This document shows positions 4,628 to 58,540 of a stretch of 64,000 nucleotides of DNA, in pieces. The notes under the pieces are model-generated. The model did not search any database, had not been told where the DNA came from, and saw only the letters and a list, made by a program, of their open reading frames with translations. The stretch lies in contig NZ_JAQGPN010000001.1 in NCBI RefSeq assembly GCF_028826155.1, positions 2,237,501 to 2,301,500 of the forward strand. The letters are read 5' to 3'. Position 1 is the stretch's first letter, and each line of letters opens with the position of its first letter. Source of the stretch: Mesorhizobium shangrilense. GTDB taxonomy: Bacteria > Pseudomonadota > Alphaproteobacteria > Rhizobiales > Rhizobiaceae. The position numbers were made by a program, and so were the translations under genes.

Positions 4628-6870
4628 GCTGCTGCGCGCCCGGCGCGGAACTTGCCCTGGACGTCCAGTCGCTGCCCTCCGATGACGAGGTCGGGCTCGC
4701 CAGCCGCGCGCTCGGCGACGGTCGGCGTCAGGTGGAACTTGCCGTGCCGGCCGTGCATTGCGGCGCCTGCATCTCCGCCGTCGAGCAGACGCTTGCGCGC
4801 CTCGAGGGCGTCGAGGCGGCGCGCGTCAACCTTTCCACCAAGCGGGTCACGGTGCGCTGGCTGGGCGATGCCGTGCCGCCGCTGGTGTCGACGCTCGCGG
4901 GCATCGGCTATCCGCCCAACCTCTTCGATTCCGAAGCCGACACAAAGGATGGCACGCTGGGCGAGCTGATTCGCGCCGTTGCGGTCTCAGGCTTCGCCGC
5001 CGCCAACATCATGCTCTTGTCCGTCTCGGTGTGGTCGGGAGCGGAGGGAGCGACGCGCGACCTCTTCCACTGGGTATCGGCGATGATCGCGCTGCCGGCG
5101 CTCGCCTTCGCCGGCCGGATCTACTACCGGTCGGCCTGGTCCGCGCTCCGGCATGGCCGCATGAACATGGACGTGCCGATCGCCATCGGCGTGACGCTCG
5201 CCTATGCGCTGAGCCTCTACGAGACCGTCAACCACGGCGCGCATGCCTATTTCGACGCGTCTGTCACGCTGCTCTTCTTCCTGCTAATCGGCCGCACGCT
5301 CGACCATGTGATGCGCGACAGGGCGCGCGCGGCGGTGATCGGGCTGGTCCGGATGGCGCCGCGCGGCGCCATGGTGATCGAAGCCGACGGCGGCCGCAGC
5401 TACCGACCGGTGGACGAGATCGTTCCGGGGACACGGCTGCTGGTCGCCGCCGGCGACCGCGTGCCGGTCGATGCGCGCGTCGAGGAGGGCGTCTCGGACG
5501 TCGATTGCTCGATCATCACAGGCGAAAGCCGCCCCGTCGCCGTCGCCGCCGGCAGCGTGGTGCGCGCCGGCACGATGAACATGACGGGCGCACTGACGGT
5601 CGAGGCCGTCGCCAGCGCTTCGGACTCCTTCCTTGCCGACATGGTGCGCATGATGGAGGCGGCCGAAGGCGGCCGCGCTCGCTATCGCCGCATCGCGGAG
5701 CGCGTCTCCGCGGCCTATGCGCCGGTGGTTCACCTGACGGCGCTTGCCGCCTTCGTGGGCTGGATGTTCGTCAACGGCGACTGGCACAACGCCATGACCA
5801 TCGCGATCGCCGTGCTGATCATCACCTGTCCGTGCGCGCTTGGGCTTGCGGTTCCGATCGTCCAGGTCATGGCGGCGCGCCGGCTGTTCGAGAACGGGGT
5901 AATGGTCAAGGACGGCGCCGCGATGGAGCGGCTGGCCGAGGCCGACGCCGTGGTCGTCGACAAGACCGGAACGCTGACCCTCGGCCGCCCACGGCTTGCC
6001 AACGCGCCTGAGATCGACCCCGACATGCTGCAGGTCGCAGCCGAGCTGGGGGCACATTCGCGCCATCCCTATTCGCGCGCCGTCGCGATCCACCGCGCGC
6101 CAGCCGAGGCCGCGGTCAGGTTCGAAGGCATTCGCGAGCATCCCGGTCTGGGCATCGAAGGTCATTTCGACGGAAGCCTCTGGCGTCTGGGCCGGGCGGA
6201 GTGGGCCGCGGGCGAGGGGGGGGGCAACGCAACGACCCTGGCGCGCGACGGCAAGGCCGTCGCCGCTTTCACCTTCGAGGACATTCTGCGGCCCGGTTCG
6301 CGCCAGGCGCTCGAAGAACTGGCCGCGAAGGTCGGCCCGGTCGAGATGCTGTCCGGCGACAATGAGGCCGCTTGCCGCGCGACGGCCATGGCGCTCGGTA
6401 TCGACACCTATTCGCCGGGCCTGCTGCCCGCCGACAAGGTTGCGCGCATCGAGGCGCTTTCGGCGGAAGGCCGCAAGGTCGCGATGATCGGCGACGGACT
6501 GAACGATGCGCCTGCGCTCGGCGCGGCGCATATCTCGTTCGCGCCGTCGAGTGCGGCCGATGTCGGCCGCAATGCGTCGGACTTCGTGTTCCTGCGCGAC
6601 AGCCTGATGGCCGTTCCGCTGGCCGTCGACGTGGCGCGCCGTGCCGGCCGGCTGATCAGGCAGAATCTCGTCATGGCCATCGGCTACAACGTCATCGCCG
6701 TACCGCTGGCGATCTTCGGCTATGTCACGCCGCTGGTCGCGGCAATCGCCATGTCGGGCTCCTCGCTGCTGGTCATCGCCAATGCGCTCCGCCTAGCGGC
6801 GCCCAGCCTTGGCGCCGGCGAAGCGAAGCAGCCGGACGCACACGAAGGGAGAGCCCAATGGCAACATTGA
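4624..6870 (+). CDS. ccoI: copper-translocating P-type ATPase for cbb3 assembly (CcoI/FixI)
   Basis: P1B-type ATPase of the FixI group that exports Cu to the periplasm for the CcoN active site. It has 748 residues. Features in order: a Cys-rich N-terminus (MSCCAPG), a heavy-metal-associated domain with HCGACIS near residue 45, membrane helices, the TGES actuator motif, the CPC ion motif in ITCPCALGLAVP, the phosphorylation motif DKTGTLT, the HSRHP nucleotide-binding motif and GDGLNDAPAL. All catalytic motifs are intact. The stop lies 13 bases inside the following ccoS reading frame (6858-6870 overlap). Confidence 0.95.
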   Translation: MSCCAPGAELALDVQSLPSDDEVGLASRALGDGRRQVELAVPAVHCGACISAVEQTLARLEGVEAARVNLSTKRVTVRWLGDAVPPLVSTLAGIGYPPNLFDSEADTKDGTLGELIRAVAVSGFAAANIMLLSVSVWSGAEGATRDLFHWVSAMIALPALAFAGRIYYRSAWSALRHGRMNMDVPIAIGVTLAYALSLYETVNHGAHAYFDASVTLLFFLLIGRTLDHVMRDRARAAVIGLVRMAPRGAMVIEADGGRSYRPVDEIVPGTRLLVAAGDRVPVDARVEEGVSDVDCSIITGESRPVAVAAGSVVRAGTMNMTGALTVEAVASASDSFLADMVRMMEAAEGGRARYRRIAERVSAAYAPVVHLTALAAFVGWMFVNGDWHNAMTIAIAVLIITCPCALGLAVPIVQVMAARRLFENGVMVKDGAAMERLAEADAVVVDKTGTLTLGRPRLANAPEIDPDMLQVAAELGAHSRHPYSRAVAIHRAPAEAAVRFEGIREHPGLGIEGHFDGSLWRLGRAEWAAGEGGGNATTLARDGKAVAAFTFEDILRPGSRQALEELAAKVGPVEMLSGDNEAACRATAMALGIDTYSPGLLPADKVARIEALSAEGRKVAMIGDGLNDAPALGAAHISFAPSSAADVGRNASDFVFLRDSLMAVPLAVDVARRAGRLIRQNLVMAIGYNVIAVPLAIFGYVTPLVAAIAMSGSSLLVIANALRLAAPSLGAGEAKQPDAHEGRAQWQH

Positions 6871-22370: not shown

Positions 22371-23279
22371 TCAATCTCCGTTGCCGCCGCGGGCATTCAT
22401 GCCTCTCGCGTTCATGCCGCGAGCGTTCATGCCGCGAGCGTTCATGCCGCGGGCATTCATGCCGCGCGCGTTCATGCCACGCGCATTCATGCCGCTCGAA
22501 TCCCCCGGTCCGCCCAGCATGGCGGCAAGGAGGACGTCCTCGAACATGCCGGTCTCGACATCCATGCGGATAGTGTAGTCGGCCTTGTCGTAGGACCAGA
22601 CCATGATGTCGTCGGCGAACTGGAAGTCGGCCTGACCCAGCCCGGTCTGCGACGGATCGCCGGGGGCGCGGGCGGCCCTCACCGTACCGAACATGCCGGT
22701 CCTTGCCTCGCTCACCGGATATCCTTCGCCATGAACAAGGAAGACGACCGGCCACGGCAGATCGTAGTAGAACCCCTCGAAACTGAACCCGTATATTCGC
22801 GCGAAGGTTGGATCTTCATCGAGCAGCAGTTGCTGCTCGAGTTCGCTCGCCAACCCGGTTCGTGGTCTGGCGAATGGCCCGTGCCGATCGTCGGGAATCT
22901 TGCCCGACTTCGTGATCACACCGGCTGCGTCGATATGAAAGACCTCACCCTTGTTTCCACCACCTTTCGATCCACGCCTGACATACACGTCGAGAGGGAG
23001 ACCGCCCGGTGGAGTATAAGGAACAGGCTTCTTGTTTACGATCTCGTATATTCCATTCTGTGCTGCAGTGGCCTGATCCTTCAGCAGTACATACTTGCCC
23101 GATTTCAGGTTTACAGTGTCCAGACTAGGCAGGGGGTTCGCCACGTTGACGTTGGCGGTGGACGCGGCAATGACCTTGAACGCCCCCGGCGGAATGACAA
23201 GAGGTTCGGTGATCGTGAGGTCATCCATGACGCGCCCGAACAACAGCACGTTAGACGGACTTAAGAGTGTTTCGGCCAT
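22371..23279 (-). CDS. unknown protein with seven C-terminal GMNAR repeats; candidate YcaO-TfuA substrate
   Basis: 302 residues. Residues ~35-130 resemble a domain common in phage fibre/receptor proteins (STANVNVANPL, SGKYVLLKDQATAAQNGIYEI). The middle (~150-245) is unrecognised and aromatic-rich (FSFEGFYYDLPWPVVF). The end reads MLGG-PGDSS, seven exact GMNAR pentapeptides, then GGNGD. There is no membrane span or signal peptide. The start has GGAG 8 bases upstream. It is the last gene of the run ycaO-tfuA-peptidase, 88 bases after the peptidase. I infer that the repeats are the modified region and the rest a leader or carrier; modification is not shown. Composition looks less GC-rich than neighbouring genes. 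Confidence 0.8.
   Translation of the reverse strand: MAETLLSPSNVLLFGRVMDDLTITEPLVIPPGAFKVIAASTANVNVANPLPSLDTVNLKSGKYVLLKDQATAAQNGIYEIVNKKPVPYTPPGGLPLDVYVRRGSKGGGNKGEVFHIDAAGVITKSGKIPDDRHGPFARPRTGLASELEQQLLLDEDPTFARIYGFSFEGFYYDLPWPVVFLVHGEGYPVSEARTGMFGTVRAARAPGDPSQTGLGQADFQFADDIMVWSYDKADYTIRMDVETGMFEDVLLAAMLGGPGDSSGMNARGMNARGMNARGMNARGMNARGMNARGMNARGGNGD
22389..22493 (-). repeat. seven tandem 15-bp units encoding GMNAR
   Basis: Each 15-base unit encodes Gly-Met-Asn-Ala-Arg. Asn uses AAT or AAC, Ala uses GCG, GCC or GCT, and Arg uses CGT, CGC or AGA, but no unit changes an amino acid. This is not the pattern of very recent slippage; it suggests selection on the peptide. Confidence 0.97.
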
Positions 23280-23367
23280 CGACTTTCTCCATCTTGAAAA
23301 CCTGTTTTCGCGTCAGGACGCCGGAAGTCTGCACCTGGCCTCCAAACCCGGAGCGTGAGCTTCTCCT

Positions 23368-24738
23368 TCAGGGGAGCGCCAACACGCTCTGATACTTCTC
23401 TCGAAATGACGGCCGCCGCCGTCCGCAGCACTGCGCATGGTTCCCCGGCACGAACACCCGGGCCAGATCGAAATGGCTGTCGCCGGCAGGCGGTGCGATG
23501 CGCGGACCGGGCCTTGCGAAGCCGATGGCGCGGCGGCGCAGGTTCACGTCGATGATCCTGCGCCAGCGTCCGCCCGACATCATGCGGTCGACGGCGCGCA
23601 ACGTGTCGCCCACTTGCGAATAGCGAAGGTCGCGAGGCGATAGACGACGCCAGGTTTCGGCGAGCATCATCCCCATCTCGTCCCGCGTCGCGACGAGCGC
23701 CTCGCGAAAGGCGTGCGGAGCGGCCGCGTAGGCTTCATCAAAAATCGGCTGGATCACACGAAAATACTCGGGATCGTCCTCGAGCTGGTCGGACAGATCC
23801 TCCTGGCTCGCGCTGATGAGTTCGCGCGCCACGAGCTCCTCGTGGAACAGGTCGACGAACATGTCGAAGACCGCGCCGGTCAGCGGCTGCGCCAGATCGT
23901 GCTCGTCGGTCCAGCCGCGGACGAAATCGAGCAGCGTGAGCGGATTAGCGGCGAGCCGGATCTGCTCGTTGTCGGTGAGCTCGGCGAAGCGGTTGGCGAG
24001 GTTGCGCGTGTAGAGGTTGCCCCGGCTGCTGGCGAGCAGCTCGTCGATGACCCTGTCGAAATGCAACGCGGCGATCAGGGCGGTCAGATCCGCCGCCGAT
24101 TCATGGAAGCCGTAGTATTCGGGCGAGTCGGTTCCGGGATCGGGAGTTCCGATCATGGCGTAGACGATGCAATGGCCGATCTCGTGGGCGATCACGTCGA
24201 AGTTGAGGCTGAAGGGCTCGATGCGCCGATCCGCGGTCTGGTGTACGCCCACCTCCAAAAAGCCGTATCCCATGAAGGCGTTCTCGAGCAAATTGCGCTC
24301 GATCACCAGTTCCAGGCGGTCGAGATCGGGGGCGAAATGCCACTCGATCGGATGACCGAAGTACTTTTCCCAGACGTCCAGCGTGAAGCGCGCGACTCCG
24401 AACAGGTGCGCCGCTTCGAATTCTGGACTGCCGGGAGCGATATGGTCGAAATGGCCGTCGGCATCGGGCAGGGCGGGCGGGAAGACGGCGCCGGTCCACG
24501 GAGGCATCAGATACGCAAAGCTGCCGCGCAGGTCTTCGGCCGCGCCGTAGGCGAAGGGTTTGCCGATCGGGTCGACCACATACATGCGATCGTCAGCCGG
24601 GCCCGGACCGACCGAACCGGCGGGTGACGAGACGATCACCGTCTCAGGCTCGTGAAACGGCTCCAGGAAGGGCGCCTGGGCATACAGCCTGAAGCGCGTC
24701 CCCGCTGTCGATGTCGGAACGTTCCCTCCAACTGCCAC
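23368..24738 (-). CDS. HEIGH zinc metallopeptidase (gluzincin-like) of the YcaO-TfuA locus
   Basis: 456 residues. FDVIAHEIGHCIVYAMIG (about 178-195) holds the HExxH zinc motif; FHESAADLTALIAAL about 25 residues later supplies a candidate third ligand Glu, as in thermolysin-type gluzincins. There is no signal peptide, so it is probably cytoplasmic. The start is GTG 24738 with GGGGAA upstream. Its position between tfuA and the repeat protein suggests it cleaves that protein, for example releasing or separating repeats; this is inference. The Pro/Arg-rich C-terminal tail has no known domain. Confidence 0.8.
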   Translation of the reverse strand: MAVGGNVPTSTAGTRFRLYAQAPFLEPFHEPETVIVSSPAGSVGPGPADDRMYVVDPIGKPFAYGAAEDLRGSFAYLMPPWTGAVFPPALPDADGHFDHIAPGSPEFEAAHLFGVARFTLDVWEKYFGHPIEWHFAPDLDRLELVIERNLLENAFMGYGFLEVGVHQTADRRIEPFSLNFDVIAHEIGHCIVYAMIGTPDPGTDSPEYYGFHESAADLTALIAALHFDRVIDELLASSRGNLYTRNLANRFAELTDNEQIRLAANPLTLLDFVRGWTDEHDLAQPLTGAVFDMFVDLFHEELVARELISASQEDLSDQLEDDPEYFRVIQPIFDEAYAAAPHAFREALVATRDEMGMMLAETWRRLSPRDLRYSQVGDTLRAVDRMMSGGRWRRIIDVNLRRRAIGFARPGPRIAPPAGDSHFDLARVFVPGNHAQCCGRRRPSFREKYQSVLALP

Positions 24739-24809
24739 GCTCGTTCCCCGAGATACGGAGCGGAAGCATGCAATTCACATCGGCGGCCGCTGCGAAAACT
24801 GCCGCTGCG

Positions 24810-26156
24810 TCAGACTATCGGCGTTTTTGCCTTTGCACCAGTGACATTCCACACAGTTTCTGCCGCGACGAAAGCATATTCGGCCGCCAGCAAGTCATAA
24901 AAGTGGTCCACGTCGTCAATGCCCAGGGCAGAGACGTAGTCAGCCAAGTTATCCGGAACCGGAATGCCCATCCGCTTGTCGAAATACCACGACAGGAGGA
25001 CAGGATGAGGAACTCTAGTGAGGGATGTGCTGGCCGTTTCCTGTTTGGCCCAGGCGCGATTGCGCAGTTTTGCGAAGGCATCGATTTCCCGCGCACGGTC
25101 GAGGATCTCCCTGCGCAGTTCGATGTCGCGCATACTGGCAAGCCGTTCGACAGCAGCCCTGTCGGCCATCATGCGCTCGAACCCAGCCGCACTCATGCCA
25201 TTTCCCTCGCACCAGCCGATGAGATCGTTCTGGCGGAACAGACCGCGCTGCATACGGAACGAATTGGTCTCCCGAGCGATCGCGCGCCGTTCCGGTTCGG
25301 TGTCTTGCGCGGCAAGCGCTTCGCGGGCCAGCAGCCGCAGCAGCGCGTCGCGCCGCAGCCGCCCGTAGCTGCCCTCCAGGCGGATCTCGTCGAGAATGGC
25401 CTCGTCGGCCTTGGACGATTCCTCGCCACCGCTCTGCGCCGCAGTCCGCCAGGGCGCGTTGTTCCAGCTTTCCGTCCATTCGAACGCAAAGCCCGGCGGT
25501 TCGTAAAGCGACGGGTGTCGGCAGAATGCCTGAATGGCTTCGAGCATCGACAGGGCGTCGGCGCGCTTCTGGTCAACCTTGCCGGTCGTCAGCCAGGTTT
25601 CGAAGGGTTCGCGCGCCGGGTCGCCCGGATCGAACTGTTCGAGCACGTCGGCCCAGCTGCGATCCTGATAGAAGCGCGCTTTGGCACCCGCCATGAGGCG
25701 ATCGGCGGTCGGTTGGTCGACCGAACCTTCGCGAACCGCGCGCTGCAGGGTTGCGCGGATGTTGACCATCGGCTCGCTGAGCTTCAGGTAGCTCGTCTCC
25801 GCCGGGCCATGAATCAGCGCCACCTCGTCGTCATCCGTCAGGACACCGTCGCGATACGCCTCGAAGATCCAGCCGACGCCGCGCATTCCGAACGTGTGCA
25901 GCTCCGCCGCACGCAGCGCGCCCATGCTGGATGCGCCGAAAACCGCAATGCCCTTGCTGAGCGCCCACAGGATTTCCTTGTGCCAAACGGCGGGATGCCC
26001 GTCGAAATAGCCGTCGACGATGCCGATGACGCTCGGGTTCTCGCGGGTCGCTGCAAACACGTCGCCCTGCTGCACGGGCGGGCGGAATTCGAATTCGGGG
26101 AACCGCTGGCAGTCGGCCGGCGCCAGGGTGGGGCCGTTGAAGACGATGACGCTCAT
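24810..26156 (-). CDS. TfuA-like protein (YcaO partner)
   Basis: 448 residues. The first ~220 residues are a TfuA domain: VIVFNGPTLAP start, VIGIVDGYFDGHPAVWHKEILWAL, AVFGASSMGALRAAELHTFGM, and SEPMVNIRATL. The last ~225 are an all-helical extension without known family. Known TfuA proteins work with YcaO in peptide thioamide formation, probably in sulfur delivery (trifolitoxin, thioviridamide-like and McrA systems). ATG 26156 overlaps the ycaO stop by four bases, so the pair is co-translated. The peptidase follows after 71 bases. Confidence 0.9.
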   Translation of the reverse strand: MSVIVFNGPTLAPADCQRFPEFEFRPPVQQGDVFAATRENPSVIGIVDGYFDGHPAVWHKEILWALSKGIAVFGASSMGALRAAELHTFGMRGVGWIFEAYRDGVLTDDDEVALIHGPAETSYLKLSEPMVNIRATLQRAVREGSVDQPTADRLMAGAKARFYQDRSWADVLEQFDPGDPAREPFETWLTTGKVDQKRADALSMLEAIQAFCRHPSLYEPPGFAFEWTESWNNAPWRTAAQSGGEESSKADEAILDEIRLEGSYGRLRRDALLRLLAREALAAQDTEPERRAIARETNSFRMQRGLFRQNDLIGWCEGNGMSAAGFERMMADRAAVERLASMRDIELRREILDRAREIDAFAKLRNRAWAKQETASTSLTRVPHPVLLSWYFDKRMGIPVPDNLADYVSALGIDDVDHFYDLLAAEYAFVAAETVWNVTGAKAKTPIV

Positions 26157-27415
26157 CCCTGCGCCCCCAGCAGGTTTCGCGCCCTTGCGCCGGGCACGTA
26201 GGCGTCATGGTCGTCCGGCGCCTCGAGCCCAGGAATGACGACGCGCATCACCGGGATACGGAAGTTCTCCTTGCTCAGATCGACGGCGACGACCTCATCG
26301 ATGCCGACGGCGCGCAGACGTTCGATCAGCCGCGCGAGATCCGAGGAAAAGTCGGCCAGGGACCGGTCGGCGACAGCGGCAAAATCCCTGATTGGCGAAT
26401 GCTCGGACATCAGCCGGGCGGCGCCCTGCCGCCGCGCGGCGCGCTGCCGTTCGCCGAATTCCACTGGCAGAAGGTCGTCGCGCGTGCCGGAGATGTAGGT
26501 CGTGCGCACCTGGACCGCTTCGGTGAGAGCCCGCAGCAAAGCGATGTTCGGGGCCAGATGCGAGCCGGCGCCGATGCCATGATGACTGGCCGGATCGCGG
26601 CGATCCGTGATCATGCAAAAGAAGGCGGGCACCCCGACGTCGGACGTCGTCTCCCAGGCGGCGATCTCGAACTCCGCGCAACGCAGGCGAGCCAGCACCT
26701 CGCGGCAATTCCCGTCGCCGACGCTCCCGAGGTCGAGCCCGGTGGCGGCGCGCGTCCTCGCCGGCATGCGGTTCCAGAGCGTCGTGGCGTCGCGCTCGAT
26801 CACCTCGCAGATTGCGTGGCAAAGCGCTTCCTCGTGCGTGTTGCCGGAGGCCAGGCCGTTGCTGCTGAAGTCGAAGCAGCCGCTGCCCGTCGGAAAGGGC
26901 AGGGTGAAGTTCGTATGGACGCACTCGTAGGGCAGCCAGCGCGGCTCGTCTGAAACCAGATCGCGCCCCTCGATCCACAGCATCTCGAGATTGGGGGCAA
27001 AACGGTTGCCGGCGACGCGGGCCAGTCGGGAGACATCCGCAAGATCCAGCGATCGTTCCAGCTGCGCCAAGCTTCCCAGTCGCAGCGGCAGTTCGATGTG
27101 CTCGGCATGATGGAGCTCGATCGCCTCCATGAGGCCGGAGGCGCGCGCCGCGTCGAGATCGACGCCTTTGCCCTGCGAAACCGCGAGCGAGCGGGCATTG
27201 GGCCGGCACACCATCACCACCGGCACGCCGATGCGGTCCAGCCCGGTCACGTCGGCCACGCGGGTGATGCCCATCTCCGCGCAGAGCGGCAGAAGGCGCA
27301 TCACAGTTTCGGAGGGATGCGCTGCCCGGTGGGTGCCGGACAGATGCCGCTTCAGATCCGGCCGGTCGACCAGCCGGTCAGGCGGAGACTGCTCAGGGCG
27401 ATGCCGCCAATCCAA
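26153..27415 (-). CDS. YcaO-family ATP-dependent peptide-modifying enzyme (thioamidation type)
   Basis: 420 residues. YcaO proteins phosphorylate a backbone amide so that a nucleophile can attack; those paired with TfuA form thioamides. Seen here: GITRVADVTGLDRIGVPV, SQGKGVDLDAARASGLMEAIELHHAE (Mg/ATP glutamates, about 78-103), CEVIERDATTLW, and RALTEAVQVRTTYISGTRDD. The C-terminus lacks the PxPxP tail typical of azole cyclodehydratases, which favours the TfuA class. The start is TTG with GAGGG 6 bases upstream; the frame is closed just above it. It is the first gene of the ycaO-tfuA-peptidase-repeat protein run. Confidence 0.92.
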   Translation of the reverse strand: MDWRHRPEQSPPDRLVDRPDLKRHLSGTHRAAHPSETVMRLLPLCAEMGITRVADVTGLDRIGVPVVMVCRPNARSLAVSQGKGVDLDAARASGLMEAIELHHAEHIELPLRLGSLAQLERSLDLADVSRLARVAGNRFAPNLEMLWIEGRDLVSDEPRWLPYECVHTNFTLPFPTGSGCFDFSSNGLASGNTHEEALCHAICEVIERDATTLWNRMPARTRAATGLDLGSVGDGNCREVLARLRCAEFEIAAWETTSDVGVPAFFCMITDRRDPASHHGIGAGSHLAPNIALLRALTEAVQVRTTYISGTRDDLLPVEFGERQRAARRQGAARLMSEHSPIRDFAAVADRSLADFSSDLARLIERLRAVGIDEVVAVDLSKENFRIPVMRVVIPGLEAPDDHDAYVPGARARNLLGAQG

Positions 27416-28365: not shown

Positions 28366-29166
28366 TCAGGCTCGCTCGATCTTATCCATGAAGGCAGCAA
28401 GCTCGGTCGGTTCCATGCGGACGATGTGCTTTTCTTCGGGATAGGCCTTGCTGTTGACGTCGGCCACGAACTCCGAGAACGCCGCCACGCGCTCCTGTTG
28501 AAGCCGATCGTATTCGGCGGCGAAGTTGCGGTAGACCTTGGAATGGCGCGGCATGTGGCCCCGGTTGGTTCCCAGCACATCCTCCGCGAACAGGTATTGC
28601 GCGTCGCAGCCCGTGCCTGCGCCCATCGACAGCAGGATCAGCGAGGTTCGCTGCGAGATCGCCTCGGCGACCTCGACGGGCACCACCTCGATCTCCGCCC
28701 CGAAGGCGCCCAGCTTCTCATAGGTCTTCACGGCTTCGAAGATCTGCATGGCAGTGTCGGCCGTCTTGCCGACGGCCTTGAAGCCGCCGGTCCAGGTGGC
28801 CCGAGACGGGATCAGGCCGACATGGCCGATGATCGGGATGTTGTCCTCGCAGAGGCGTTTCACGGTCGGGAAGCCCGCTGCGCAGTAGATCGCATCGGCG
28901 CCTGCCTTGTAGAGCTTGAAGGCGAAGCGCACGAAGTCGTCGGTCGAGCCGAACTCGAAGAAGTTGTCGCCGGGCATGGAGAAGAGGCTGGGCGCGGCGT
29001 CGCGGTACTGCGGGTTGAGCAGCAGTTCCGGCGGGATCGAGACGATGTCGACCCCCGCCTTTTCCGCGGCCTCCGCTTCCTCCAGCGTCATCACGCGCAG
29101 CATGGTGAGCTGCCGCTTTCCCTTCATGGCGCGAATGTCTGCAACTGTCGGACGCTTGCGGCTCAT
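28366..29166 (-). CDS. divergent PanB-like ketopantoate hydroxymethyltransferase family protein
   Basis: 266 residues with the PanB TIM-barrel pattern: GHVGLIP, a catalytic-Glu-like region EIEVVPVEVAEAIS, and GAGTGCDAQYLFAEDVLG. The N-terminal canonical segment (TAYD...VGDSLGM, with the metal-binding Asp) is replaced by TMLRVMTLEEAEAAEKAGVDIVSIPPELLL, so the usual first metal ligand is missing. No panC is adjacent; it sits beside a MocE/MocD-like pair. It may be a paralogue with a different one-carbon or lyase reaction. Database labels of panB would be weakly founded. Confidence 0.75.
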   Translation of the reverse strand: MSRKRPTVADIRAMKGKRQLTMLRVMTLEEAEAAEKAGVDIVSIPPELLLNPQYRDAAPSLFSMPGDNFFEFGSTDDFVRFAFKLYKAGADAIYCAAGFPTVKRLCEDNIPIIGHVGLIPSRATWTGGFKAVGKTADTAMQIFEAVKTYEKLGAFGAEIEVVPVEVAEAISQRTSLILLSMGAGTGCDAQYLFAEDVLGTNRGHMPRHSKVYRNFAAEYDRLQQERVAAFSEFVADVNSKAYPEEKHIVRMEPTELAAFMDKIERA

Positions 29167-29238
29167 GAGACTTCTCCCTGCGTTCCAAATGTCCGGTTCG
29201 GCGAAACGGCCATGCGCTTCAAGGCGCTGCCGGCGCGT

Positions 29239-29553
29239 TCAGCCGATGTCGATGAGGACGGTGCCTCCCTCGACCTTGACCGGATAGGTCTTGAGGTTGA
29301 CGCAGACGGGCGCGCGCAGCGCCTGGCCAGTCTTGTAGTTGAAGCGGCCGTTGTGCTTCGGGCACTCGATCACGTCATCCATCACCAGCCCACCGGACAA
29401 ATGCACTTTCTCATGCGTGCACAGGCCCTCGGTGGCGAAGAATTCGTCGTCCGGCGAGCGATAGATCGCAAACGTTCGCCCGCCATGGTCGAAGCGGATC
29501 ACGTCCTCCTCGTCCACGTCGTCCACGGCACAGGCTTCAACCCATTCTGACAT
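29239..29553 (-). CDS. Rieske-type [2Fe-2S] ferredoxin (MocE-like)
   Basis: Electron carrier of 104 residues. The Rieske cluster ligands are C-T-H in EGLCTHEKVHL (near 44-46) and C-P-K-H in IECPKHNGRFNY (near 64-67), a standard CxH...CxxH pair. It lies immediately downstream of a desaturase-fold oxygenase, the same pairing as rhizopine mocD-mocE, and would feed electrons to that enzyme from a flavoprotein reductase. No reductase gene lies in this cluster; one candidate is at 54866-56101. Confidence 0.9.
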   Translation of the reverse strand: MSEWVEACAVDDVDEEDVIRFDHGGRTFAIYRSPDDEFFATEGLCTHEKVHLSGGLVMDDVIECPKHNGRFNYKTGQALRAPVCVNLKTYPVKVEGGTVLIDIG

Positions 29554-29634
29554 TTCCGTATTCCATAGTTGTTGGTTCAGGTGTTCGGGGCCGGGGCAGG
29601 CGGCCCAGACCTGCGGGACGTGCCCGCATCGTTC

Positions 29635-30732
29635 CTACTCGGCCGCTGACGGCATCGCGAGGTTGTGGAACTCCTCGCGGTAGGGCCGCGCGGTCGGGGG
29701 CAGCTCCCGCCGCAGATAGTAGTCCTCGTAGCGGAGCTGCCTCAACACGACGGGCCAGACCTCCTTGTAGGCGTGCCACATCGATGGGTTGGCGTCAGGC
29801 AGGTCGTGCTTGATCAACTCATGCAGCCTGGGCAGCGCGTGATACGGAATCATCGGGAACATGTGGTGTTCGACATGGTAGTTCATGTTCCAGTAGATCC
29901 AGCGACTGATCGGGTTCATGTGCACCGTGCGCGAGTTGAGCCGGTGGTCGATGACGTTGTCAGCCAGGCCGATGTGCTGAAGCAGCCCCGTGAGCACCAT
30001 GTGCCACATGCCGTAGACGCGCGGTCCGCCGATCAGCATGAGCGGGAGGAACGACCAGGTGTAGATCGCGACCGCCACCGTCGCGACATAGATCGCCACA
30101 TGCCAGCGCGCCGCCACGATGGCCTTGGGCCGTTCGCTCTCCGGGATGTAGCTCTTCTCATCCTCGCTCAGCCGGCCAAACGCTTGTCGGAACAGGGCGG
30201 GCAGCGCGTAGCGGAAATCCATGACGCCGACGAAGGTCAGCGCCGCCTTGAGGAGATCCGGCGGGCGCATCACTGCGATCTCGGCATCGCGGCCGACGAT
30301 GATGGTGTCGGTGTGGTGGCGGGCATGGCTCCAGCGCCAGACGACCGGGTTGCGCATCAGCATGAAGCTCGCGATCTGGTACACGACGTCGTTCATCCAG
30401 TCGGTCTTGAACGCCGTGCCGTGGCCGCATTCGTGCCAGCGTGAATCGCTGGAGGAACCGTAAAGGACGCCGTAGACGAGGAAGAAGGGCACGCACCACC
30501 AGGTGCCCCAGAAATAGATCCCGCCGGCCGCGGAGCCGAGGATCAAGGCGATCCAGATGACGGTGTCGCGGATGGCGGGGCCATCGGAGCGCTTCATCAG
30601 CTCCTTCATCGTCTTGCGGGGCACATCGGTATGATACCATTCGGCCGAGGCGAGGCCGGTCTCGATCGCACGTCTCGTGCTTTCCCCGACGAGGCTGTAA
30701 TCCCGCTTCTTCGCTATGGTCGTCTCAGCCAT
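29635..30732 (-). CDS. fatty-acid-desaturase-fold oxygenase (MocD-like)
   Basis: Membrane di-iron oxygenase, 365 residues from MAETTIAKKRD (GGAG upstream; the longer frame to 30798 is not favoured). Three His boxes are visible: HECGHG, HARHH and HVEHHMF, with several hydrophobic segments between. MocD in rhizopine use belongs to this fold and, with MocE and MocF, removes the O-methyl group of 3-O-methyl-scyllo-inosamine. The paired Rieske gene and the polyol-type transport and dehydrogenase genes support such a demethylase role here, with the exact substrate unknown. Confidence 0.85.
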   Translation of the reverse strand: MAETTIAKKRDYSLVGESTRRAIETGLASAEWYHTDVPRKTMKELMKRSDGPAIRDTVIWIALILGSAAGGIYFWGTWWCVPFFLVYGVLYGSSSDSRWHECGHGTAFKTDWMNDVVYQIASFMLMRNPVVWRWSHARHHTDTIIVGRDAEIAVMRPPDLLKAALTFVGVMDFRYALPALFRQAFGRLSEDEKSYIPESERPKAIVAARWHVAIYVATVAVAIYTWSFLPLMLIGGPRVYGMWHMVLTGLLQHIGLADNVIDHRLNSRTVHMNPISRWIYWNMNYHVEHHMFPMIPYHALPRLHELIKHDLPDANPSMWHAYKEVWPVVLRQLRYEDYYLRRELPPTARPYREEFHNLAMPSAAE

Positions 30733-30823
30733 TGCTGTTCTCCACTTCCATTGCCCGGGCGGAGGAGGCGTTGCAGCACCCTGGTCCGCCCGAAGCATGC
30801 TTCGCCGCGCGTTTCCTGCGGCC

Positions 30824-31600
<777 letters not shown>

Positions 31601-56323: not shown

Positions 56324-58540
56324 ATGGAACGCCGCCTTGCCGCCGTGATGATCGCCGACGTTGCCGGCTACAGCCGGTTGAGCAGGGCCGACGAGGAAGG
56401 TACCCGCGCGCGCTTCCTTTCGGATCTGAACGAAGTCTTTGAGCCTCTGATCTCTCAATTCCATGGGCGATTGGTAAAGACGATGGGCGACGGGCTGCTC
56501 GTCGAGTTTCCAAGCGTCGTTGATGCGCTTCGCTGCGCGGTAGAGGTGCAACGGGCAAAAGCCGAACGCGATAGACATGCTCCTCCAGAACAGCGGCTAA
56601 ACTTTCGCATTGGCGTGAACATCGGCGACGTGATTGTCGAGGGTAACGATATTCACGGCGATGGTGTGAACATTGCCGACCGCATCCAGACACTAGCCGA
56701 ACCCGGCGGGACGGCGATCTCGGGTACGGCCTACGATCACGTCAAGGACAAGGTTCCGTTCGCACTTTCGGCGCTCGGAGAACAGAAGGTAAAGAACATT
56801 CCCGAACCCGTCAGAGTGTATCATGTGGCGGATCGGACGACGGCGAACCGGAGCGTCGCTTCGACGAGAAACGGTCGGCGGAGATACACATGGCTTGCCC
56901 TGGCCGCGGTTGCCATGGTGGGGATCGTATTGACGGCACTGACCTGGCGCCAGTGGCACTTAATTCCGTCTTCCTATGAACAGGCGGGGGCGACACAACC
57001 TTCTCTGGCGGTTCTGCCCTTTGACACGATGGGCGACAGCCAACAACAAGCATACCTCGCCGACGGCTTTTCCGAAGACCTGACAACGGCGCTAGCCCGC
57101 ATCCCCGGCGTGTTTGTCGTCTCCCGCAACGCAGCATTCGCCTACAAGGACCGAACGGTACAACCCACCGAAATCAGCAAAAAGCTTGGCGTACGCTACC
57201 TGCTCGAAGGATCAATTCGGCGCCTTGGAGACGATATTCGGATCAACGCGCAACTTATCGATGGCGAGTCCGCCGGCCATCTGTGGGCCGAGCGTTTCGA
57301 CGGTCAATGGTCGGATGTGTTCACCCTGCAAGATACGGTGGTCGACAGAATTGCGGGTGCGCTCAAGCTGCGGCTTGTGTCCAGCCAAGGCAAAACCGGC
57401 ACTGCCGGCGGCACGAACGACCCGATTGCATACGAAGCCTATCTGCGCGGCTCTGAGCTCGAGGGTAGAGGCACACCCGATGCAATCGTCGACGCGGAAG
57501 CGTTGTATAAGCAGGCACTGACGCTGGACCCTGCCTTTGGGGCGGCTGCCGCGGCCCTGGCTTCCCTCTATTGGAACGCCGACGACGCACGTTCAAAAGC
57601 CCTCGGCTTGAGCTGGAAAGAAATCGTTGAGAAGCGCGGGGAAGCGTTGCGCATGGCGGCAAGATACCCTTCTCCAACCTATTACCAGGTCTCTGCAGAC
57701 CTGCTTGTCAGGGAACGCAAGTCAGACGAAGCGATCAAGCTCTTGCAGCGGGCGATTCCGTTGAACCCGAGCGACGACTGGACCTATGTGGTGCTCAGCG
57801 ACGCTCTCAACTTCAACGGTCGCCCGAGAGAAGCTCGAGCCTACCTCGATGCAGCCATGCGGGTCGACCCTGGCTGGACCGACTGGCGTCACTACCAAGC
57901 CGGCCTTGCCGAATTCGGGCAGGGGCGTTTCAAGGAGGCGATTGACGCGCTTGAAAGGATCAATCCGGACTCGCCCAGTCCGTGGCCAAGGTTTTTCGGC
58001 CAGCATCTGCTCCTGTCCGCCTATGGGCATCTCGGGCATCCCGACAAAGCACGTTCTGTCAAGAGGACGTTGGAGGCCCTGGTCGAGGCCACGGATGGCG
58101 GCGAACTCTGTCAGTTGGTCGCACAACAATATTTTGTCTACATGGATGAGGCAGACATGCTTCGCCTACTCGACGGCCTAACCAAAGCTGGCGTCAGCGC
58201 GCTCCCCTCCAGCGCCGTTCCGAAGCTCGGTGATCGGCTATCAGGTCCGGAGGTTCGGTCGCTCGTTACCGGCCACACGCTTGCCGGCCGCGAAATTGCA
58301 CCGACGGTAAGCGACTTCGGGCTGACCATTTGGCCAAACGGCAAGTTCAACGCATTCTTCGGCCCCGACGGTGTCAGCGGAACGGTCTGGGTGCAGGGTG
58401 ATTTCCTGTGCACGGCAACGGCCGAACGGCTGACGAATTGCGCTGCGGTGTTCCGCAATCCGGTCGGATCGGCGGCTCAACGAAACGAATATCGAGCCGT
58501 CTTCCGCTGGAGCCAGTTGGAGTTCTCGGTCATCAATTGA
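56324..58540 (+). CDS. class III adenylate/guanylate cyclase with membrane span, TolB-like and TPR regions
   Basis: 738 residues. N-terminal cyclase domain (5-170): VMIADVAGYSRLSRADEEGT, TMGDGLLVEFPS, RIGVNIGDVI, GVNIADRIQTLAEPGG. A membrane helix follows (TWLALAAVAMVGIVLTALTW, about 188-208), then SLAVLPFDTMGDSQQQAYLADGFSEDLTTALAR and the GSIRRLGDDIRINAQLID region, then TPR-like repeats to about 600. The last 80 residues (FGLTIWPNGKFNAFFGPDGVSGTVW) are unrecognised. Same architecture class as the 20413-22179 protein but membrane-bound. Looks less GC-rich than its neighbours. Single-gene unit. Confidence 0.9.
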   Translation: MERRLAAVMIADVAGYSRLSRADEEGTRARFLSDLNEVFEPLISQFHGRLVKTMGDGLLVEFPSVVDALRCAVEVQRAKAERDRHAPPEQRLNFRIGVNIGDVIVEGNDIHGDGVNIADRIQTLAEPGGTAISGTAYDHVKDKVPFALSALGEQKVKNIPEPVRVYHVADRTTANRSVASTRNGRRRYTWLALAAVAMVGIVLTALTWRQWHLIPSSYEQAGATQPSLAVLPFDTMGDSQQQAYLADGFSEDLTTALARIPGVFVVSRNAAFAYKDRTVQPTEISKKLGVRYLLEGSIRRLGDDIRINAQLIDGESAGHLWAERFDGQWSDVFTLQDTVVDRIAGALKLRLVSSQGKTGTAGGTNDPIAYEAYLRGSELEGRGTPDAIVDAEALYKQALTLDPAFGAAAAALASLYWNADDARSKALGLSWKEIVEKRGEALRMAARYPSPTYYQVSADLLVRERKSDEAIKLLQRAIPLNPSDDWTYVVLSDALNFNGRPREARAYLDAAMRVDPGWTDWRHYQAGLAEFGQGRFKEAIDALERINPDSPSPWPRFFGQHLLLSAYGHLGHPDKARSVKRTLEALVEATDGGELCQLVAQQYFVYMDEADMLRLLDGLTKAGVSALPSSAVPKLGDRLSGPEVRSLVTGHTLAGREIAPTVSDFGLTIWPNGKFNAFFGPDGVSGTVWVQGDFLCTATAERLTNCAAVFRNPVGSAAQRNEYRAVFRWSQLEFSVIN

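Follow-up and report, generated by a model that had tools for sequence, protein, structure and literature searches.

The window analyzed here is a 64,000-nucleotide stretch of the Mesorhizobium shangrilense genome (contig NZ_JAQGPN010000001.1). We examined a candidate YcaO-TfuA system in this window, in which the apparent substrate is a protein with a repeated C-terminal tail, here called the carrier. The open reading frame (ORF) list of the window places ycaO and tfuA on the same strand with a 4-base overlap, followed by a peptidase gene and then by the carrier gene (Table 1). A cyclase-TPR gene adjoins the carrier gene downstream. The gaps between the genes of the locus are only 71, 88, and 191 bp, and therefore leave little room for a second precursor. 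A sequence-only reading of this DNA had described the overlapping ycaO and tfuA genes, a HExxH peptidase, and a protein with seven identical pentapeptides on the same strand. The coordinates, the PF02624 and PF07812 matches, the HEIGH motif, and the seven exact GMNAR units agree with that description, to which the present analysis adds the cyclase-TPR gene and a phage tail-fiber-like domain in the carrier.

Table 1. Genes and features of the candidate system (window coordinates)
Feature	Position	Strand	Basis
ycaO, 420 amino acids (aa), putative backbone-activating ATP-dependent enzyme	26153-27415	-	PF02624, 263.7 bits
tfuA, TfuA domain (residues 3-210) and C-terminal extension of ~240 aa	24810-26156	-	PF07812, 165.2 bits, 6.2e-49
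M36/M4-like zinc metallopeptidase, 456 aa	23368-24738	-	HEIGH at residues 185-189; M36/M4-type fold
Repeat-tailed carrier, putative precursor/substrate, 302 aa	22371-23279	-	501 homologues at E <= 0.001
Conserved carrier N terminus, METLLSPSNVLLFGRxxxDL	23220-23279	-	
Optional phage tail-fiber/head-decoration-like domain, ~residues 30-130	22890-23192	-	PHROG 2647, 2e-9; BFVD fold matches, 49 at E <= 0.001
Conserved carrier domain, ~residues 140-256, ARIYGFS.EG.YYDLP...LFLVHG ... VWSYDKADYTIRMDVETGMFE.VLL, putative recognition part	22512-22862	-	
Seven GMNAR units, putative core peptides	22389-22493	-	Residues 263-297; predicted disordered
Class III adenylate/guanylate cyclase with TPR region, 588 aa	20413-22179	-	PF00211, 1.7e-12, and TPR

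The two enzymes have the marks of a YcaO-TfuA pair, namely, a YcaO domain with its ATP-binding motif and a TfuA domain encoded next to it. The motif SNGLASGN...EA..HAI.EVIERDA is intact in the window YcaO, which aligns with MJ1094 (6pe3) at 3.7e-30 and is the single YcaO match in the genome. The solved TfuA domain 6xp8 matches residues 3 to 210 of the window TfuA at 1.1e-35. No family scored above its cutoff in the C-terminal extension of TfuA, where the match to TIGR04500 at residues 276 to 344 is weak (E of 0.035). The best NCBIfam matches of both proteins are to the pair that modifies a glycine of McrA, and the NGLASGN...IERDA motif is as in MJ1094. However, the scores stay below the equivalog cutoffs (220.5 versus 365 bits for TIGR03266, and 213.3 versus 235.2 bits for NF033432), and the apparent substrate here is the repeat tail, not McrA.

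We used the best 120 of the 501 carrier homologues, and a scan of GTDB genomes with the carrier yielded 68 loci. These come from Mesorhizobium, Ruegeria, Leisingera, Roseovarius, Paracoccus, Pelagibius, Skermanella, Alsobacter, and other genera, and a few records are titled gammaproteobacterial. For the tails, the 120 proteins (including that of the window) were combined with 65 of the 68 loci and with 12 loci from whole-genome searches, giving 195 distinct sequences. Loci L065, L067, and L070 were left out as open-ended or frame-broken; identical sequences were counted once, and near-copies were kept. Tandem tails were found in 183 of the 195 carriers. The unit period is 5 in 169 of these tails, 6 in 10, 7 in 3, and 4 in 1, and 130 tails have 6 or 7 copies. 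The commonest units are GMNAR (50), GAKVS (32), GARVS (30), and GMSAR (23). The shortest unit, GMNV, is repeated in the period-4 tail of the L097 carrier (5120-5569).

The units are held by selection on the peptide. Tandem Repeats Finder detected 7.3 copies of a 15-bp unit in the window carrier gene, with an 85% match. The protein sequence does not vary among the seven GMNAR units, whereas their DNA differs at 39 of 105 codon pairs. All of these differences are synonymous, although 35 of the 45 possible single-base changes in one GMNAR-coding unit would be nonsynonymous. Therefore, the array is no fresh duplication. Across 64 arrays from the loci and the window, unit-to-unit codon-pair differences were synonymous in 3160 cases and nonsynonymous in 340, counted over pairs that are not independent inside one array.

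The rest of the carrier is modular. Across the family, its length ranges from roughly 150 to 430 residues, and the window carrier had no match in Pfam or NCBIfam at an E value of ≤1. The spacing between the carrier motifs could be measured in the 164 of 188 proteins that have both motifs, and it fell into classes of 52, 107, and 5 carriers. This spacing suggests that the phage tail-fiber-like domain is present zero, one, or two times per carrier. Among 13 candidate stretches, none was confirmed as a carrier in a viral contig. The tail is the longest predicted-disordered stretch of the window carrier, with a predicted local distance difference test (pLDDT) score of ~40 in a model whose predicted template modeling (pTM) score is 0.51. 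A PDB fold search with the carrier gave 89 matches at an E value of ≤10 and none at ≤0.001, but with this pTM the absent match is no evidence for a new fold.

The carrier is found together with YcaO-TfuA. We counted a gene as present if it had a match within 8 kb of the carrier, and called a locus well flanked if it extends ≥5.5 kb upstream and ≥3.5 kb downstream, as 52 of the 68 do. By this measure, ycaO and tfuA were each present in 50 of the 52 loci, the peptidase gene in 47, a cyclase gene in 49 (a tally that admits cyclase domains of other architecture), and a GNAT gene in 36. We then surveyed two genome samples, both of which include the window's genome. In the order sample (397 genomes, 18 with a carrier and 62 with TfuA), 17 of the 18 carrier genomes had both at most 2.5 kb apart (P = 4e-14), and in the class sample (385 genomes, 6 with a carrier and 21 with TfuA), so did 6 of 6 (P = 1e-8), by Fisher tests that ignore kinship, relatives not being independent. 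The class-sample carrier profile was built with carriers from the order sample included, and the two samples together hold 22 distinct genomes with carrier and TfuA. Thus, the co-occurrence that the sequence-only reading had put forward as its test was found in loci and genomes alike.

In the order sample, the one miss (G166) is a weak match (E of 7e-4) to an ordinary pentapeptide-repeat protein, and we kept it as a miss. The weak matches L079 to L082 have a cyclase-like gene, ycaO, tfuA, the peptidase gene, and the carrier gene in a row. Eight of the 68 loci lack a nearby ycaO or tfuA. For Leisingera L017 and L019, the two well-flanked loci among them, a ycaO-tfuA-peptidase block lies ~20 kb off on the same contig and reversed, and the genome has one carrier only; for L050, the block sits on a different contig of the same genome. 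Loci L026, L035, L037, and L066 begin <0.8 kb from a contig end, and the eighth, L048, is discussed below. Two Leisingera genomes (L105/L106 and L017/L019) have a split locus, with carrier-cyclase-GNAT oriented opposite to ycaO-tfuA-peptidase as if inverted. Among 60 YcaO proteins of the loci, 12 have the strict ATP-binding pattern; the other 48 have NGLASG (44), NGLGSG or NGLSSG (3), or are a 45-aa fragment (1). The L014 YcaO diverges downstream of NGLASG.

The metallopeptidase motifs of the peptidase are conserved. HEIGH (185 to 189) and E213xxxD217 are unchanged across a 26-row alignment, and HExxH...E is kept in 59 of 60 peptidases of the loci, the remaining one being a 163-aa fragment. 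The predicted fold is of the M36/M4 metallopeptidase type, with ~13% identity to M36 fungalysin and M4 thermolysin peptidases. The fold, the HExxH motif, and the Glu as third zinc ligand together place the protein with M36/M4 at the level of fold, which is the level at which the earlier peptidase assignment was borne out. At the level of Pfam family, the sole match was Reprolysin_4 at an E value of 0.35, under the cutoff, and a sequence search of the PDB gave no match at an E value of ≤1. By-eye inspection revealed no secretion signal or propeptide.

We propose that the locus yields short backbone-modified peptides in many copies from one carrier, an explanation that we hold, as a whole, at slightly under even confidence. 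YcaO, with sulfur supplied via TfuA, would recognize the conserved C-terminal carrier domain and act on every unit of the disordered tail, with thioamidation as the most likely modification. The tail is very probably the substrate of the pair, and a thioamide is the probable change. The M36/M4-type endopeptidase would then cut the tail or release units; we lean toward its acting on the carrier. Where a GNAT gene is present, as it is in many loci, the new N terminus may be acetylated, as for the thiovarsolins, although we regard this as somewhat doubtful. The adjoining class III cyclase could govern the system through a cyclic nucleotide, a regulatory role to which we give an even chance. The sequence analysis supports the gene content, its conservation and co-occurrence, the selection on the units, and the predicted peptidase fold, whereas each chemical step of this scheme is inferred.

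Within GMNAR, the modified residue would most likely be the one that precedes the basic residue, at the Ala-Arg bond, with Gly as the alternative. The preference is by analogy with two characterized YcaO-TfuA products that have short cores. Passages of the thiovarsolin paper describe N-acetylated A-P-R with a thioamide between Pro and Arg (PMC6511847), and those of the std paper describe thioamidation by YcaO-TfuA of the Asn right before Lys in StdA (PMC13174530). The residue that precedes the 176 basic positions is Ala in 149 cases, Val in 14, Gly in 10, and others in 3. Composition cannot choose between the sites, because Gly is absent from 4 units and Arg or Lys from 8; the 4 without Gly belong to one locus group (L057, L058, L059, and L066), and no unit lacks both. 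The sequence-only reading had proposed a thioamide, or another backbone change, in the Gly-containing units. Its thioamide is retained here as the probable change. A Gly site has a precedent in McrA, where the literature passages give thioglycine as the YcaO-TfuA product, while the thiovarsolin and StdA precedents point to Ala-Arg.

Several observations weigh against our explanation. Gly (179 of 183 consensus units) is at least as frequent as Arg or Lys (175 of 183), and composition therefore does not favor a site before a basic residue, the more so as 8 units have no such residue. As Gly is this common, we lowered our confidence in that site from slightly above even to slightly below, and in the explanation as a whole from even to slightly below. 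No tandem tail was detected in 12 of the 195 carriers. L079 to L082 and L096 have a single conserved non-repeated segment (SPTMYASRMMMGHRGGRLG-like), which is possibly an ancestral single core in these distant carriers; the carrier end is Arg-rich in L090 and L094, short and free of repeats in L055, and made of degenerate repeats in L056, L063, P0103, and P0111. In a tree of 54 YcaO sequences, YcaO-TfuA pairs without a carrier fall at more than one place, one such row (L104) being a 4.6-kb contig that is too short to judge carrier absence. L048, from a gammaproteobacterial metagenome-assembled genome (MAG), has the peptidase, carrier, cyclase, and GNAT genes and an unrelated 1075-aa ORF upstream; it is the sole locus outside the well-flanked set that has upstream room for tfuA yet shows none there, and no TfuA was found in the MAG. 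This MAG may be incomplete, or the locus may be a genuine exception. At three well-flanked Paracoccus loci, the peptidase alone was unmatched, also in a whole-genome search. Neither GNAT family has a match in the window. Finally, none of the 40 gene families listed is a transporter as widespread as the core genes.

The last of these points, together with the three Paracoccus genomes, would fit a modified tail that remains on the protein. The product would then be a modified protein of the kind exemplified by ribosomal uL16 and McrA, with the peptidase maturing or degrading the carrier at a different site. The long conserved domain and the optional phage tail-fiber-like domain also exceed the needs of a throw-away leader. 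However, the peptidase gene is near the carrier in most of the well-flanked loci, and the many near-identical units recall excised cores such as those of VarA. We consider this alternative unlikely, yet more probable than the two that follow. A tail that serves as a basic or structural element, either a pentapeptide-repeat coil or a polyanion-binding tail, with YcaO-TfuA modifying a different part of the carrier or a different target, is distinctly less probable. GANVR-type units do resemble pentapeptide repeats, PF00805 was found in 9 of the 120 homologues listed, exactly one Arg, Lys, or His is present in 173 of 183 units, and the Arg-rich non-repeat ends of L090 and L094 would suit such a role. 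Against it, the window protein lacks the PF00805 match, the tail has a pLDDT of ~40, GMNAR, GMNV, and RADMTA in our judgment suit no single repeat fold, and the carrier co-occurs with YcaO-TfuA. Another backbone change on the tail, such as an amidine or azoline, is very unlikely: some YcaO enzymes do make one (literature passages give an amidine example) and Ser is in many units (GARVS, GAKVS, and GMSAR), but azolines are ruled out as the common product because 68 of the 183 units have no Ser, Thr, or Cys and Cys is in no array, GMNAR itself lacks the Ser, Thr, or Cys of an azol(in)e-forming thiazole/oxazole-modified microcin (TOMM) core, and literature passages tie the TfuA partner to thioamides.

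The remaining neighbors vary among the loci. A second AC-TPR-like gene in the window (56330-58066, plus strand) shares ~30% identity with the carrier-adjacent cyclase; therefore, the adjacency of the cyclase, and not its presence, counts as evidence. The window cyclase scored 19 bits against the TOMM kinase/cyclase family TIGR03903 (cutoff, 705.75), and the SAM-cyclase of L056 scored 430.1 bits. In L079, the cyclase-like gene is a partial sequence with AAA and TPR regions, in which the cyclase domain was not seen. A GNAT gene was found in 39 of the 68 loci by family clustering (30 and 9) and in 44 by the looser tblastn tally (E value of ≤1e-5 within 8 kb). One locus with such a gene is L003, from the soil and nodule bacterium Mesorhizobium albiziae. 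An ABC-ATPase-like family occurs in 12 of the 68 loci at scattered positions and on both strands. On the minus strand of the window (28366-31600) is a row of ORFs (PanB-like, Rieske ferredoxin, fatty-acid-desaturase-like, and sugar ABC ATPase), which we take to resemble rhizopine-type mocD/mocE genes.

Besides the McrA-modifying pair, two known systems are close to the one proposed here. The thiovarsolin pathway (varA/varY/varT, Streptomyces varsoviensis) shares the YcaO-TfuA pair and a repeated core with a small-small-Arg motif, which is present here as GMNAR x7. In the present system, the carrier is ~150 to 430 residues long and has conserved domains, and neighboring genes encode a protease, a cyclase, and frequently a GNAT. 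Passages of the thiovarsolin paper state that the cluster has no specific protease and suppose host proteases and a host N-acetyltransferase (PMC6511847). The std cluster (StdA/StdGH, Streptomyces thermodiastaticus) shares YcaO-TfuA and a protease, whose domain trims the product. It differs, according to passages of its report, in that its protease is of the S8/S53 type and is joined to a carbamoyltransferase in one fusion protein, that there is one core motif, and that an MNIO enzyme is present (PMC13174530). The same preprint, of May 2026, lists in those passages the characterized YcaO-TfuA ribosomally synthesized and posttranslationally modified peptides as thioviridamide-like compounds, thiovarsolins, thioamidated thiopeptides, chimeric lanthipeptides, and its own std product. 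Passages of a survey (PMC8120280) report that TfuA-YcaO clusters reach their highest numbers in Proteobacteria, with >1000 proteobacterial TfuA clusters, and its tables may hold these loci. The literature passages searched, a search that did not extend to supplementary tables, contained no description of these tails, of the carrier, or of this peptidase with YcaO-TfuA.

A different kind of precursor is likely in the loci L086, L087, and L092, which we label Rhizobium-type. There, a conserved peptide of ~86 aa lies directly upstream of ycaO (L086, 6906-7163; L087, 3896-4153; L092, 3581-3838) and is likely a short precursor. These peptides end in SGRLSAYSGRF or nearly so, and the L092 copy has no match in Pfam or NCBIfam. 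Kinship of the carrier with these ~90-aa peptides was rejected (hhalign probability, 0.5%).

It is possible, though unlikely, that these loci define a widespread new class of poly-thioamidated proteins, found in relatives of Mesorhizobium and Ruegeria, in further alphaproteobacteria, and in a few gammaproteobacteria. Such a protein would be built in modules, with up to two phage tail-fiber-like domains (zero, one, or two) and a backbone thioamide in every unit of a disordered tail (typically 6 or 7 units), which would act in place or be released as identical thioamidated oligopeptides under cyclic-nucleotide control. We infer that search tools for short precursors are likely to overlook a carrier of this size. 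Next to ycaO-tfuA, the system has a gene for a likely substrate and one for a protease, joined in many loci by a GNAT gene. Because the tail is a natural array of identical sites, one mass spectrometry experiment could measure both the processivity and the site preference of YcaO-TfuA.

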